DNA of 64,000 nt. Source: Mycolicibacterium poriferae (GTDB taxonomy: Bacteria > Actinomycetota > Actinomycetes > Mycobacteriales > Mycobacteriaceae). Of the stretch, positions 25,252-30,328 are shown piece by piece. A model generated the notes under the pieces. It was not told the origin of the DNA and made no database searches. It was given only the letters and a program-made list of their open reading frames with translations. The translations under genes were made by a program, and so were the position numbers. Where the stretch lies: the NCBI RefSeq assembly GCF_010728325.1, contig NZ_AP022570.1, positions 5,208,001-5,272,000 on the forward strand, given 5' to 3'. Position 1 is the first letter of the stretch. The number at the start of each line of letters is the position of its first letter.

Positions 25252-27591
25252 CTATAGCTTGGCCACCGGTGCGTGGTTGTGCATCAGCTTCACCCGGCCC
25301 GCGCTGCCGAAGTCGATCAGCGACATCGCGGACTCACCGACGCCCGAGACCTCCTCGACCCGGCCCAGCCCGTACTTGTCGTGGGTGACGCGGTCGCCGG
25401 GTTCGAGCACCAGCAGCGGGCGTTTGGCGGCCGCCGGGCGCATCGGCGACGGTCGCGGCGTGCCGAACCGGCCCGCGCCGCTCACCGGTGCCGACAGCGA
25501 CGACGCCGGCTGCTCGGTGCGGCGCCAGTCGATGAGCTCCTGGGGGATCTCGCGCAGGAACCGCGACTCGGGGTTGAGCATCGGCTGCCCCCAGGAGGAG
25601 CGCACCTTGGCCCGACTCAGATACAGCCGCTGGCGGGCGCGGGTGATTCCGACATAGGCCAGCCGCCGCTCCTCGGACAACTCCACCGGATCACCGAGCG
25701 CGCGCATGTGCGGGAACATGCCGTCCTCCCACCCGGTGACGAACACAACCGGGAACTCCAGCCCCTTGGCGGTGTGCAGCGTCATCATCGTGACCACGCC
25801 GGCACCGTGCTCGGGGATGTCGTCGGCGTCGGCGACCAGCGACACCCGCTCGAGGAACGCGGCGAGCACACCGGTGTCCGGAATGTCCTCGTCGACCGGC
25901 TCCGCGCCGTCCTCGCCGGCCAACGCTCGCGCGTTCGCCAGGTCGATGCTGAATTCGTGGGCGACGCTGACCAATTCGTTGAGGTTGTCCAGCCGCGCCA
26001 GATCCTGCGGGTCGTTCGACGATTCGAGTTCGGCGCGATAGCCGGTGCGGTCCAGCACCGCCTCGACGAGCTCGCCCAACTCCCCGTCGAGCATGCCCCG
26101 CAGCTCGTCGAGCAGGCCGACGAAACCCGCGATCGCCTTCTCTGCCCGCGTGTTGAGCATCGGCACCCGGCCCTCGGCGGCCGCGACCAGGGCGTCGTTG
26201 AAGTTCAGGCCGGTGTTCTCGGCGTGCACGGCCACACAGGCCTCGGCACGGTCGCCGATACCACGGCGCGGGGTGTTCAGGATGCGCCGCATGCTCACCG
26301 AATCGCCGGGGTTGTCCAGTACTCGCAGGTAGGCGACGATGTCGCGAATCTCGCGGCGTTCGTAGAAGCGCACTCCCCCGACGACCTTGTAGGGGATGCC
26401 GGCGCGGATGAACACCTCCTCGATCGCCCGGGAGGAGTTGTTGGTGCGGTAGAAGACCGCGACGTCGTTGTAGGAGAAGTCGCCGACGGAATCGGACAGG
26501 TTGTCGATCTCCTGCGCGACGAACCGGGCCTCGTCGTGTTCGTTGTCGGCGACGTACCCGACGATCAGCTCACCCTGACCGGAGTCGGTCCACAGCCGCT
26601 TCTCGCGCCGGCCGGTGTTGCGCGCGATGACCGAGTTGGCCGCGTTGAGGATGGTCTGAGTGGACCGGTAGTTCTGCTCGAGCAGAATCGTTGTCGCGTC
26701 GGGAAAGTCGCGTTCGAAGTCTTCGATGTTGCGAATCGTCGCGCCACGGAACGCATAGATGGACTGATCGGCGTCACCGACCACGCACAGCTCGGCCGGC
26801 GGCACCGTGTCGGTGTCGGGCGCGCCCACGCCCACCAGTTCGCGCACCAGCACGTACTGGGCGTGATTGGTGTCCTGGTATTCGTCGACCAGGATGTGCC
26901 GGAATCGGCGCCGGTAGTACTGGGCGATCTGCGGGAACGCCTGCAGCACCGCCACCGTCTCACCGATCAGGTCGTCGAAATCCAGCGCGTTGGCCGTCCG
27001 CAGCCGGCGCTGATACTCGGCGTACACCTCGGCGATGACGCGAGCCAGATCGTCGGCCGCCTCGGATGCCTCCGCGGCGGCCTGCTCGGGCCCGATCAAC
27101 TCGTTCTTGAGGTTCGAGATGCCGTTGGCCAGCAACCGAGGTGAATGGCGTTTGGTGTCCAGCCCCATGTCCTTGCCGATCATCAGCAGCAGGCGGCGCG
27201 AATCGTCGGCGTCGTAGATCGAGAAGTTCGAGTTCAGCCCGGCCACCAGCGAGGCCTGGTTGCGCAGGATCCGCACACACGTCGAGTGGAACGTCGACAC
27301 CCACATGCTGCGCGCCCGCGGACCCACCAGACCCACCACACGCTCGCGCATCTCCGCGGCGGCCTTGTTGGTGAACGTGATGGCCAGCACCTGCCCCACC
27401 CCCACGTCGCGAGCGGCCAGCAGGTAGGCGATGCGGCGGGTGAGCACCGCCGTCTTTCCCGAACCGGCGCCGGCGACGATCAACAACGGGCTCCCCTCGT
27501 GCAACACCGCCTGGCGCTGCTGCGGGTTCAACCCGTCCAGCAGCTGATCGGTGTCACTCGCCGGGGACGTCATCGGAAGAGGTGCAGTCAT
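25252..27591 (-). CDS. uvrD1: ATP-dependent DNA helicase UvrD1/PcrA
   Basis: A 779-residue SF1A helicase for nucleotide excision repair and other DNA processing; mycobacterial UvrD1 is known to be stimulated by Ku. Walker A is IVAGAGSGKTAVLTRRIAYL near residue 40; motif II is ILVDEYQDTNHAQY; motif III VGDADQSIYAFRGA; motif IV NYRSTQTILNAAN; motif VI YVGITRARQRLYLS. C-terminal Tudor-like tail (DRVTHDKYGLGRVEEV) is present. ATG at 27591. Its promoter must overlap the divergent chorismate mutase leader region. Confidence 0.96.
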   Translation of the reverse strand: MTAPLPMTSPASDTDQLLDGLNPQQRQAVLHEGSPLLIVAGAGSGKTAVLTRRIAYLLAARDVGVGQVLAITFTNKAAAEMRERVVGLVGPRARSMWVSTFHSTCVRILRNQASLVAGLNSNFSIYDADDSRRLLLMIGKDMGLDTKRHSPRLLANGISNLKNELIGPEQAAAEASEAADDLARVIAEVYAEYQRRLRTANALDFDDLIGETVAVLQAFPQIAQYYRRRFRHILVDEYQDTNHAQYVLVRELVGVGAPDTDTVPPAELCVVGDADQSIYAFRGATIRNIEDFERDFPDATTILLEQNYRSTQTILNAANSVIARNTGRREKRLWTDSGQGELIVGYVADNEHDEARFVAQEIDNLSDSVGDFSYNDVAVFYRTNNSSRAIEEVFIRAGIPYKVVGGVRFYERREIRDIVAYLRVLDNPGDSVSMRRILNTPRRGIGDRAEACVAVHAENTGLNFNDALVAAAEGRVPMLNTRAEKAIAGFVGLLDELRGMLDGELGELVEAVLDRTGYRAELESSNDPQDLARLDNLNELVSVAHEFSIDLANARALAGEDGAEPVDEDIPDTGVLAAFLERVSLVADADDIPEHGAGVVTMMTLHTAKGLEFPVVFVTGWEDGMFPHMRALGDPVELSEERRLAYVGITRARQRLYLSRAKVRSSWGQPMLNPESRFLREIPQELIDWRRTEQPASSLSAPVSGAGRFGTPRPSPMRPAAAKRPLLVLEPGDRVTHDKYGLGRVEEVSGVGESAMSLIDFGSAGRVKLMHNHAPVAKL

Positions 27592-27626
27592 ATGCGGACA
27601 AACCTACCGCTGTGAACCGACACTCT

Positions 27627-27656
27627 TTGCGCTGGCACGGCAGGTAGTGGCACACT
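27627..27656 (+). promoter_or_regulatory. promoter for the chorismate mutase leader transcript
   Basis: TTGCGC (27627-27632) and CACACT (27651-27656), 18 bases apart, with the -10 ending six bases before the GTG of the leader peptide at 27663. This spacing suggests the mRNA begins at that GTG. The -10 is weak. Confidence 0.4.
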
Positions 27657-27662
27657 CGTTGG

Positions 27663-27755
27663 GTGCTCAACGCGCAGCCCGGCAACTCGCTCCTCACCCG
27701 AGGGGCTCAGCGCCGATTTTTCTACGGGTACCGGCCAGCGGTGCCCGTGGTCTAG
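27663..27755 (+). CDS. putative 30-residue Phe/Tyr leader peptide
   Basis: An uninterrupted frame GTG...TAG encodes 30 residues, MLNAQPGNSLLTRGAQRRFF then YGYRPAVPVV. Phe-Phe-Tyr-Gly-Tyr at codons 19-23 (27717-27731) concentrates the two end products of the pathway that begins with chorismate mutase, whose gene follows. The peptide ends ten bases before a strong terminator-like hairpin. This is the layout of a ribosome-mediated attenuator such as the pheA leader of enteric bacteria. I saw no Shine-Dalgarno; a leaderless start is proposed. Confidence 0.65.
   Translation: MLNAQPGNSLLTRGAQRRFFYGYRPAVPVV
27724..27748 (+). promoter_or_regulatory. pause/competitor hairpin inside the leader
   Basis: ACGGGTACCG (27724-27733) pairs over ten positions (one G-U) with CGGTGCCCGT (27739-27748), loop of five. 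Its 5' arm includes the Tyr-Gly-Tyr codons, so a ribosome stalled there would open it. The downstream CCGTGG (27745-27750) could then pair with CCGCGG (27771-27776) inside the terminator stem. Confidence 0.5.
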
Positions 27756-27765
27756 CTGCTTCCCA

Positions 27766-27804
27766 GAGCCCCGCGGTCCGCTTCCGGATCCGGGGCTCGT
27801 TTCT
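27766..27804 (+). terminator. attenuator terminator before chorismate mutase
   Basis: GAGCCCCG (27766-27773) pairs with CGGGGCTC (27791-27798), continued inside by GGTCCG/CGGATC, around a CTTC loop: 14 pairs with one bulged C and one G-U. GTTTCTTGTG follows. It lies 72 bp before the chorismate mutase ATG and beyond the leader stop codon. GGGGCTC at 27702-27708, within the leader, is identical to the 3' arm and could compete for the 5' arm. Confidence 0.65.
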
Positions 27805-27869
27805 TGTGTGAGGCCCGAAACCGGATGAGACCAGACCCTTCACACAACGGAAATTCGGAGAATCACGAG

Positions 27870-28166
27870 ATGACGACGATGGAAACCGCTGCAGCCTCCT
27901 CGGACCCCTCCCAGGAGCTCGACGCCTCGGACATCGATGCTCTGCGCCAGGAGATCGACCGGCTCGACGCCGCGATCCTCGAGGCGGTGCAACGGCGGAC
28001 CCAGGTCTCACAGCTGATCGGTAAGGCACGCATGGCCTCGGGCGGCACGCGGCTGGTGCACAGCCGGGAGATGAAGGTCATCGAGCGCTACAGCGTGCTC
28101 GGCGCGGAGGGCAAGAACCTCGCGATGCTGCTGCTGCGCCTGGGCCGCGGCCGCCTCGGGCACTGA
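27870..28166 (+). CDS. chorismate mutase (AroQ-delta, Rv0948c-like)
   Basis: A 98-residue cytoplasmic enzyme that rearranges chorismate to prephenate, the branch to Phe and Tyr. The AroQ helix pattern is visible: DIDALRQEIDRLDAAILEAV, RRTQVSQLIGKARMASGG, SREMKVIERY. The C-terminal RLGRGRLGH is the tail that in M. tuberculosis MtCM docks on DAHP synthase for activation. ATG at 27870 has CGGAG ten bases upstream; ATG at 27879 is possible. A leader-peptide attenuator is predicted upstream, consistent with end-product control. Confidence 0.93.
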   Translation: MTTMETAAASSDPSQELDASDIDALRQEIDRLDAAILEAVQRRTQVSQLIGKARMASGGTRLVHSREMKVIERYSVLGAEGKNLAMLLLRLGRGRLGH

Positions 28167-28231
28167 TCGCACACGCCGTCGGCGTGCTGCCTGCGCGTCA
28201 TCGCCGGTAGACGCACCGAGGCCACTCGAGC

Positions 28232-30328
28232 TCAGTTCGGCTGTATCGCCTCCACCAGCCACGGGGTGAGCCACTCCACCGCCTCCGGGGTGGGGTGCAC
28301 CCCGTCGCTGCGCATCCGGATGCCGTCGACCTTGGTGGTGTAGTAGCCGTTGGGGCTCAGCTTCTCGTTCAGGTCGGCCACGGTCACGTTGGGCCGGTCG
28401 TCGACGACACCGCGCAGCAGCTCGTTCCAGGTGTCGACCCGCTCCGGGTGGTCTTCGGGGTAGAGGCTGCCGTCGGGCTTCTCGGCGCGCCGGTTGTACG
28501 GCTCGGTGGTGACGACGATGCGCGCCCCGGTCGAGCCGAGGATGTCGAGCGCACGCCGGAGCTCGGCCCGTAGATACGAGTCATAGGCTTCATCTCCGAT
28601 GTGTGTCCAGCGTCCTTCGTTCATGCGGTCGACGATCTCCCACCGACCGACGATCAACAGCACCACGTCGGGGCGCTCGTAGGAGATCCGCTGACTCCAC
28701 CGGCTGGGCCAGGCGTCGCACTCCGGCTTCTGGTCGAGCTCTTGACCGACGTATTCGTACGGGCCGCCGCGGGCGATGCCGCAACCGATGGTCGTGTAAT
28801 CGGCGAAATGCACGCCAGGCGTCGCCGGCAGATACCGCATCAGAGTCCACGCGATCGAGTCCCCGAACACCGCCACCCGCATGTCGCCGGGCGCGCCGGG
28901 ACGTGGTGGCGGTGCGACCTCGACAGGGACCTCGGGCGCCACCAACGCCGCCGAATCGACCAGTGGTCCCGGCTCCGGCGTCTGGGGAGTCAGCTGCACC
29001 GGCACGATCGTCATCGCCACCATCGCCGCGGTCGCCGCCGAGGCGGCAGCCAGCGGCAGCATCGGCACGGAGACCGGCCGCCACTCCCGGATCGGCTGTT
29101 CGATCAGCCACCAGGAGATCGCGGCGACGGCGAGGGTCGCCGCACAGCGCAGCGCGAACAAGTGCCAGCCCGTCACCCCGGTGCGCTCGCCGTTGACCAG
29201 CAGGAAGATCGGCCAGTGCCAGAGGTAGACCCCGTAGGAGATTGCGCCGAGGCCCACCAGCGGCCCGGTGGACAACAACCGCGCGACGGGGCCCTCCTGA
29301 TCGAGCGCCACCGGCGCGATGACCAGCACAGCGGCCAACGCCACCGTGATCAGCAGGCCGTGCCGGAACTCCTCGGCGCTGCCGGTGGCACCGTGAGCGG
29401 CCAGCACGAGCACCACCAGCCCGAGCGCGGGCAGCAGCCGAGCCGTCCAACGGGTCCAGCGGGAGCGCAGCGTCGTGACCCCACCGGCCAGACCGCGCCA
29501 GTCCCGCACCACCAGCGCCGCGGCGGCGGCGCCGACGAGCAACGCCTGTACTCGGGTGTCGGTGCCGAAGTAGACACGGTTGAGAGATGCGTCGCCGGCC
29601 AGCGTCATGCTGGCCGCCGCCGAGGCGAGCACGCCGGCGCAGGCGAGGACGAACACCGCCGTGCGGAGCGCGCGGGGGGTCAGCGGCGTGCCGCGACGGT
29701 AGGCCAGCGCGGCGAGACCCGCGACCACGGCCGCCACCATCAGCGGCCACAGCAGGTAGTACTGCTCCTCGACGGCCAGCGACCACGTGTGCTGCAGCGG
29801 CGACGGCGGCGCCCCGTGACTGAAGTAGTCGGTGTGCTGAGCGACGAACAGCCAGTTGGACATCCAGAACAGGGCGGCCACCGCTTCGTCGCGCAGGTTG
29901 GCGGTGGCTTCTGCGGCGAACAGTTCGCGGGCGGTCACCACGGCCAGCACCATGACGATCAGCGCGGGCAGCAATCGCCGGGCCCGGCGAATCCAGAAGC
30001 TTTTCAGACCGATCCGGCCGGTGCGGCCGACCTCGTCCAGCAGCAATGAGGTGATCAAGAACCCGCTGAGAACGAAGAACACGTCGACGCCCAGGAATCC
30101 GCCGGACATTCCCGGTACGCCGCCGTGGTCGGCGAGCACCAGCGCGACCGCGATCGCTCGGACACCGTCGAGCGCAGCGATGCCACGGCCCGGGCTGACG
30201 TAGCGGCGCGGCCCCACCCGGATCGGTGCCGCACTCACGGCGGTGCCGGTCTTGACGGCTCGGCCGGCGCTGCCGGTATTGACGGCTCGGCCGGCGCTGC
30301 CGGTATTGACGGCTCGGCCGGCGGTCAC
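28232..30328 (-). CDS. acyltransferase 3 with SGNH hydrolase domain (OafA/Rv0111-like)
   Basis: A 698-residue integral membrane O-acyltransferase that would transfer acetyl or other acyl groups to a cell-envelope glycan or glycolipid. N-terminal acyltransferase-3 domain has about ten membrane helices, with ALDGVRAIAVALVLADHGG and FVLSGFLITSLLLDE as signatures. The C-terminal SGNH-like domain (from about residue 480) starts MRVAVFGDSIAWTLMRYLP with the catalytic Ser and ends with DGVHPTPEAVEWLTPW (Asp/His pair). GTG at 30328 has AAGGAGG ten bases upstream. Its first 30 residues are a triple GRAVNTGSA-type repeat. The acceptor is unknown. Confidence 0.9.
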   Translation of the reverse strand: MTAGRAVNTGSAGRAVNTGSAGRAVKTGTAVSAAPIRVGPRRYVSPGRGIAALDGVRAIAVALVLADHGGVPGMSGGFLGVDVFFVLSGFLITSLLLDEVGRTGRIGLKSFWIRRARRLLPALIVMVLAVVTARELFAAEATANLRDEAVAALFWMSNWLFVAQHTDYFSHGAPPSPLQHTWSLAVEEQYYLLWPLMVAAVVAGLAALAYRRGTPLTPRALRTAVFVLACAGVLASAAASMTLAGDASLNRVYFGTDTRVQALLVGAAAAALVVRDWRGLAGGVTTLRSRWTRWTARLLPALGLVVLVLAAHGATGSAEEFRHGLLITVALAAVLVIAPVALDQEGPVARLLSTGPLVGLGAISYGVYLWHWPIFLLVNGERTGVTGWHLFALRCAATLAVAAISWWLIEQPIREWRPVSVPMLPLAAASAATAAMVAMTIVPVQLTPQTPEPGPLVDSAALVAPEVPVEVAPPPRPGAPGDMRVAVFGDSIAWTLMRYLPATPGVHFADYTTIGCGIARGGPYEYVGQELDQKPECDAWPSRWSQRISYERPDVVLLIVGRWEIVDRMNEGRWTHIGDEAYDSYLRAELRRALDILGSTGARIVVTTEPYNRRAEKPDGSLYPEDHPERVDTWNELLRGVVDDRPNVTVADLNEKLSPNGYYTTKVDGIRMRSDGVHPTPEAVEWLTPWLVEAIQPN
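30243..30323 (-). repeat. 27-bp repeat, three copies, in the acyltransferase 5' end
   Basis: GGTATTGACGGCTCGGCCGG recurs with 27-base spacing, encoding GRAVNTGSA twice and GRAVKTGTA once on the minus strand. It sits before the first transmembrane helix. Confidence 0.8.

Follow-up and report, generated by a model that had tools for sequence, protein, structure and literature searches.

What is the role of a short open reading frame, crowded with aromatic codons near its end, that lies just ahead of a chorismate mutase (CM) gene in Mycolicibacterium poriferae? This gene stands at the entry to phenylalanine and tyrosine synthesis, and an earlier note on the 64,000-nucleotide stretch of DNA analysed here (the window, from a genome of 5.93 Mb in 2 contigs) had read the frame as a Phe/Tyr leader-peptide attenuator. 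The codons, the hairpins and an alternative pairing are kept upstream of CM, and support this reading. We consider it highly probable that CM is subject to ribosome-mediated transcription attenuation that has a leaderless start and senses aromatic aminoacyl-tRNA, and the gene appears to be turned on when phenylalanine or tyrosine runs short.

The Leader and Its Codons

The following features of the window are used throughout:

27626..27631, plus strand: -35-like TTTGCG, a putative promoter element judged from sequence
27648..27656, plus strand: extended -10-like TGG-CACACT
27663..27755, plus strand: leader peptide ORF, GTG start, 30 aa, probably a leaderless GTG at +1
27717..27731, plus strand: regulatory codons Phe Phe Tyr Gly Tyr (TTT TTC TAC GGG TAC)
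27724..27748, plus strand: helix 1:2 (27724-27733 with 27739-27748), 10 pairs
27737..27782, plus strand: antiterminator 2:3 (27737-27741/27778-27782 and 27745-27750/27771-27776), 11 bp
27766..27798, plus strand: terminator hairpin 3:4 (27766-27780/27785-27798), 14 pairs, one bulged C
27799..27805, plus strand: T-rich tail GTTTCTT, as it stands in the window
27870..28166, plus strand: CM, the putative controlled gene, 98 aa, ATG start, type II

The CM of the window matches Pfam CM_2 (E 6.7e-10), and its closest solved relative in the PDB is M. tuberculosis Rv0948c (E 8.2e-35); none of 248 genus genomes encodes a CM identical in sequence to this PDB entry, the best of the matches listed reaching 92%. 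The 30-codon leader with its Phe-Phe-Tyr-Gly-Tyr run, as first proposed, is found at 27663-27755 with those codons at 27717-27731, and its C-terminal end is RRFFYGYRPAVPVV, closed by the stop TAG at 27753-27755. A short ORF holding codons for the end product of a pathway, followed by a gene that belongs to the pathway of the sensed amino acids, is the arrangement of attenuators of the trp/phe type. A six-frame scan of the 64 kb window finds the pattern [FYW]3-x-[FYW] at most 10 codons from a stop a single time, and at least 4 aromatic residues within the last 18 aa are reached by 23 of the 1332 stop-ended frames of at least 18 codons.

The first part of the window leader (27663-27716) makes it longer than most of its relatives, a trait shared with L014, L064 and L077, and the extra codons hold the heptamer GGGGCTC. 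This heptamer had been noted as a possible partner in alternative folds; it does lie upstream in the window, but it is no general part of the switch and was rejected as such, as it was present in no more than 4 of 74 named loci, the twin locus L002 included.

Upstream, TTTGC is more than 95% conserved in an alignment of 74 distinct loci, and GGCA[CGA]ACT is present in all 74 named leaders checked; in 67 of them an in-frame start follows at 6 or 7 bases, in the other 7 at 3 bases. Most leaders of other genera carry CAAACT, CATACT or similar, at a similar distance from the start. Because of this box-to-start spacing, transcription would start at about 27663, on a leaderless GTG; natural deletions, described below, were also used to place the start. 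An ORF that we take to encode a UvrD-like helicase (25252-27591, minus strand) is divergent from the leader, and the two start codons stand 71 bases apart, so that the promoters have a short region in common.

Three Mutually Exclusive Helices

The 14-pair hairpin reported after the leader stop is indeed there: it begins 10 bases after TAG, has an energy of -27.2 kcal/mol, is followed directly 3′ by GTTTCTTG and leaves 71 bases to the CM start (27798 versus ATG 27870). Likewise, the second hairpin, at 27724-27748, forms with 10 pairs, its 5′ arm falling within the Tyr-Gly-Tyr codons, and the suggested pairing of CCGTGG (27745-27750) with the terminator 5′ arm holds (partner CCGCGG, 27771-27776) and is extended by five further pairs (27737-27741/27778-27782). 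The helices 1:2, 2:3 and 3:4 are mutually exclusive, as in attenuators of the trp/phe type.

Taken as a whole, 27708-27805 folds at -53.8 kcal/mol (z = -4.69), an energy matched by 1 of 200 shuffles. RNA from 27737 to 27785 alone folds as 2:3, at -18.4 kcal/mol; this helix is weaker than 3:4 and, with the whole terminator present, another fold has the minimum energy, a situation compatible with a kinetic switch. The U-tract that follows the strong hairpin in the window is T-rich but interrupted (GTTTCTT), and the 10 bases following GGGGCT hold 3-8 T across 74 named loci. Rfam gave no family at E <= 0.3 for window positions 26000-30000, and no Phe leader match, the only hits being P15 (E 0.39) and NRF2_IRES (E 0.57), both far below gathering scores.

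Conservation Within the Genus

The alignment upstream of CM orthologues that had been suggested was made from named CM loci, of which the best 80 of 252 were kept, mostly labelled Mycobacterium or Mycolicibacterium, some being metagenome assemblies with other labels. At 75 of these 80 closest loci the element is present, with the Phe/Tyr codons, both hairpins and the alternative pairing kept. In 248 genus genomes, drawn evenly from a larger group, CM was found in every one and the element, by model R1, in 225. The aligned leader stretch of the window is identical in L002 (Mycobacterium sp. PO1), which the window replaces in alignment A1 (75 sequences); L005, L008, L011, L044 and L054, lacking the element, were excluded from it.

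Among the 75 loci that the motif FFxGY selects, the window copy and its identical twin L002 both counted, the first codon is TTT in 74 and TTC in 1, the second TTC in 57 and TTT in 18, the third TAC in 69 with others in 6, and the fifth TAC in 73 and TAT in 2. Among the 75 named element-bearing loci, 74 keep Phe at the second position, with C or T as the third base of the codon in an unpaired stretch; L006, which fails FFxGY, reads Phe-Thr-Tyr-Gly-Tyr, with Thr in place of one Phe codon. The 74 named leaders have on average 4.3 aromatic residues in their last 18 aa, Trp among them in 17, and in 73 of 74 the stop has its first base 13-19 bases ahead of the terminator GCCC.

Pairing in A1 reaches 99.1% of cells for 1:2, 97.0% for 3:4 and 93.3% for 2:3. 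Helix 1:2 shows 3 double-change cells: in L012 and L027, GGGTACC becomes GGATACC and is compensated on the opposite arm, and in L081 an A-U pair becomes G-C. Double-change cells of terminator 3:4 are not above shuffles (123 of 500 reach the count). The bulged C of the terminator is paired in 2:3, as G-C in 66 of 75 sequences and G-U in 4, with no pair in 5, and the outer 2:3 pair 27737/27782 fails in 41 of 75 mycobacterial sequences.

Spread Beyond the Genus

At E <= 0.01, model R1 matched 83 of 301 family genomes and R2 182 of 298 order genomes (44 of 66 genera), and at E <= 0.001 R2 matched 84 of the 301 family genomes and R3 67 of 276 class genomes; all these tallies are upper bounds, because weak model matches were spurious. 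The samples fetched for closer study were mostly the strongest matches and not random. At family level outside the genus, 39 of 43 distinct fetched places lie directly upstream of CM (genera g10, g12, g17, g21 and g23; L120 is a repeat of L119), and so do all 20 order loci fetched (all E <= 4e-5), 19 as found by tblastn and the twentieth, L202, by its ORF and BLASTP (E 9e-15). The 20 class matches fetched with R3 comprise 9 that precede CM, 7 of them in genus g102, 7 that precede DAHP synthase and 4 spurious ones. Those four (L226-L229, R3 E 4.8e-5 to 3.1e-4), like four weak family matches (L136-L139, R1 E 2.4e-5 to 0.008), are without CM and look like gene-end terminators.

The seven leaders before DAHP synthase belong to family f26 (L218-L223, L230) and have hairpins and a terminator, with FWRFYGYR in 5 and FWYGDG in 2; the synthase was recognized by Pfam DAHP_synth_1 (E 9.6e-68) on L218 only, and on the other six by similar MVIVM... 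proteins. In the window's own genome, the regions ahead of DAHP synthase (PF01474) and prephenate dehydratase (PF00800) showed no aromatic-rich leader.

Over their last 18 positions, the 39 family leaders hold on average 3.6 aromatic residues and the 20 order leaders 3.75; Trp is present in 35 of the former and in none of the latter. Leaders of genus g10 have fewer aromatic codons in the run, which mostly reads HWRFPSGYR. GCCC follows the first base of the stop at a distance of 13-19 bases in 33 of the 39 family leaders; for the order leaders the range is 18-26, in 16 of 20, and the remaining short distances may be search-pattern matches to an earlier GCCC.

Covariation of the Helices

Covariation was examined in chosen subsets A2, A3, A4 and A5 (40, 51, 32 and 39 rows), A4 not being used for counts; A3 holds 44 distinct sequences and A5 39 sequences across the order. 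On A3, helix 1:2 is paired in 91.8% of cells and has double changes at 7 of 13 pairs, in 37 cells, a count reached by 0 of 500 shuffles (mean 11.2); on A5 it has them at 7 of 11 pairs, in 27 cells (0 of 500). The alternative helix 2:3, tested on A3 in the geometry of other genera (GACU.CGG.GC.CGUGG with CCACG.GC.CCG.GGUC) and not counted on A5, is 85.2% paired with 28 double-change cells (shuffled mean 11.3, 0 of 500), at 4 pairs, a number that 48 of 500 shuffles reach. Terminator 3:4 is 86.3% paired on A3, with 6 double-change cells (reached by 53 of 500), and its core of 8 pairs is 95.8% paired on A5, with 24 such cells (0 of 500) at 3 pairs (reached by 21 of 500). When the partner arm is slid, pairing drops to at most 64% in each of these tests. 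The covariation is strong, but the shuffle counts are not formal probabilities, because relatedness inflates them and A3 and A5 were largely chosen by structure model. Compensatory changes in both hairpins, which the earlier note had named as a source of support, are seen in 1:2 (A1, A3 and A5) and, for the terminator core, order-wide only (A5, not A1 or A3).

These data bear on a different role for the leader, namely translation attenuation, by which it would control access to the CM ribosome-binding site while the 27766-27798 hairpin would not be a working terminator. The interrupted U-tract of mycobacteria could be read this way, as could a conserved GTGTGAGGCC box 3′ of the hairpin, which is able to pair with CACACAA immediately ahead of the CM start region (27804-27811/27840-27847; 80.4% of cells). 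This downstream pairing, however, shows no double changes and is not above shuffles, whereas in genus g23 the hairpins are followed by runs of 4-6 T (TTTTTT in L121, for instance) and the hairpin core covaries throughout the order, which makes translation attenuation improbable. At a place similar to that of GTGTGAGGCC/CACACAA, some other genera have, by eye, GGATCG/CGATCC.

Codons, Peptide and Structure

Sequence comparison brings out the leader, its codons, the three mutually exclusive helices and the gene. Nevertheless, coding and structure are confounded in the ORF, because hairpin 1:2 also lies inside it, and this leaves some room for an ORF that is incidental to a constitutive promoter-proximal terminator, or for a small functional protein. 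We hold either to be barely credible in view of the paired changes in all three mutually exclusive helices and of the C/T variation of the second Phe codon, as well as of the lineages that lack the element, from which codons and terminator are both missing.

Another possibility is that the peptide itself, RFFYGYRxPVPV, stalls the ribosome as a response to a ligand, and in most of the mycobacterial, family and order leaders seen the peptide end is conserved past the aromatic codons. Yet the conserved peptide stretch largely coincides with helix 1:2, and the peptide end changes with frame or helix while aromatic codons and pairing stay. In genus g102, the leaders before CM are like MLTQTTFLFTYGNRPTGCHGRAA and end in the manner of RPTGCHGRAA. 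In part of g23, frame and helix have become offset by one base, or another sequence stands in for that of the helix, giving peptides such as WRFFVRHRLPVLDN, WRFFSQAPEAGA, WRYFTCPGPRCT, GRYFTCAGPRCT and WHYFTSAGPRCS; the first Phe codon can become Tyr (WRYF, WHYF, GRYF), and ends such as VRHRLPVLDN or SQAPEAGA can follow WRFF, the helix being kept by paired changes. L131-L135 retain 10 or 11 of the 11 pairs of helix 1:2, and the altered g23 leaders keep an aromatic pair just before it. Because aromatic codons and pairing persist while the peptide changes, codon sensing is favoured over a peptide-arrest motif, and nascent-peptide arrest seems to us very improbable.

Loci Without the Element

Of the 23 genus genomes without an R1 match, 20 were examined, with start codons judged by eye. 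In 14 of them the CM start codon apparently lies at the leader-start site (L166-L169, L173-L177, L179-L183); six of these apparent fusions (L166, L167, L175, L177, L182, L183) start right after the CACACT/CAGACT box, and in the other eight the box is changed. Three genomes (L165, L171, L172) keep a short remnant without FFYGY codons or hairpin, L184 has an unrelated upstream region, and L170 and L178 were left unclassed. Among the 80 named loci, L054 falls in the first of these classes and L005, L008, L011 and L044 in the second.

Since CM starts where the leader would in 14 of 20 genomes, the switch seems to have been lost as a unit; codons and terminator are missing jointly, which fits a single device. 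These losses are loci counted, not independent events on a tree. It is quite possible, and we put it forward tentatively, that a single ancestral aromatic attenuator of the Actinomycetes was kept with CM in the mycobacterial order and in Streptomyces-like genera, stands on DAHP synthase elsewhere, and dropped out as a cassette on several occasions, so that CM became fused to the leader start site.

A Model of the Switch

From this layout we infer the start site, ribosome stalling, termination and the response to amino acids, as follows. RNA polymerase would start at about 27663, and a ribosome would translate the GTG leader from the very 5′ end of the transcript. With charged tRNA-Phe (and tRNA-Tyr) scarce, it would wait on the TTT TTC TAC codons (27717-27725) and cover the 5′ arm of 1:2, leaving segment 2 (27737-27750) to pair with segment 3 (27771-27782); once 2:3 had formed, there would be no terminator and CM would be transcribed. 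With amino acids plentiful, the ribosome would reach the stop (its first base lies 13 bases 5′ of the terminator) and cover segment 2, so that 3 and 4 would form the terminator and transcription would end near 27805. If the leader were not translated, helix 1:2 would form and termination would be the default. Several observations weigh against this model: the interrupted U-tract of the window, the relative weakness of 2:3, the terminator double changes that stay within the range of shuffles on A1 and A3, the 2:3 pairs that fail in some mycobacterial sequences, the altered Phe codon of L006 and the less aromatic run of g10.

Relation to Known Systems

A 2005 survey of Actinobacteria, Mycobacterium included, states in the portion of its text available that no conserved RNA structures were seen upstream of Phe/Tyr operons (PMC1262725), a statement, as there worded, that the CM element contradicts. 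Chorismate is absent from the main text, as available, of PMC2965389, PMC4833913 and PMC4974804. A literature search, with supplements and many subscription papers outside its coverage, returned no earlier report of the CM element or of the attenuation model.

The aroR-aroF attenuator of C. glutamicum was reportedly described by Neshat et al. in 2014. Its leader carries Phe-Tyr-Phe codons before the DAHP synthase gene aroF, and the available parts of two papers describe ribosome stalling under Phe limitation as enhancing transcription of the aroF operon (PMC4046766; PMC11802643). Likened by description, this is, as in the window, an actinobacterial leader with aromatic codons and an aromatic-pathway gene downstream; unlike the window element, it precedes the DAHP synthase gene and not CM.

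In E. coli, according to the pertinent section of PMC11802643, pheL-pheA has a leader before a chorismate-mutase-bearing gene and is regulated by Phe-charged tRNA. The logic is the same as in the window, but a CM-PDT fusion is controlled. The pheL leader is Shine-Dalgarno-led and senses Phe.

Within mycobacteria, the ilvB1 attenuator of M. tuberculosis is presented, in the available text of PMC13236596, as a translated uORF with a terminator/antiterminator switch; the main text available uses the word chorismate 0 times. It is a mycobacterial translated uORF like that of the window, but it senses branched-chain amino acids and precedes a different gene. In the same text, rifampicin-resistant RNA polymerase is said to terminate more at the ilvB1 attenuator (PMC13236596), so other attenuators, the CM element among them, could be affected in this way too. 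Leaderless poly-Cys uORFs of mycobacteria are there associated with translation attenuation (Canestrari et al. 2020, as cited in PMC13236596); each is, like the window leader, a leaderless short ORF sensing a pathway amino acid, cysteine instead, and the survey's available text describes their loci as having no conserved hairpins able to be terminators (PMC1262725).

As far as the accessible part of PMC11802643 goes, C. glutamicum CM is active only in complex with DAHP synthase, and the complex is inhibited by Phe. If such allostery were shared, the attenuator would add control by amino-acid supply. The CM element offers an explicit model of how CM levels could be set in mycobacteria. The nearest functional relative known to us, judging by the published descriptions available, is the aroF leader of C. 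glutamicum, and the putative CM attenuator has an unusual spread and a probable leaderless start.
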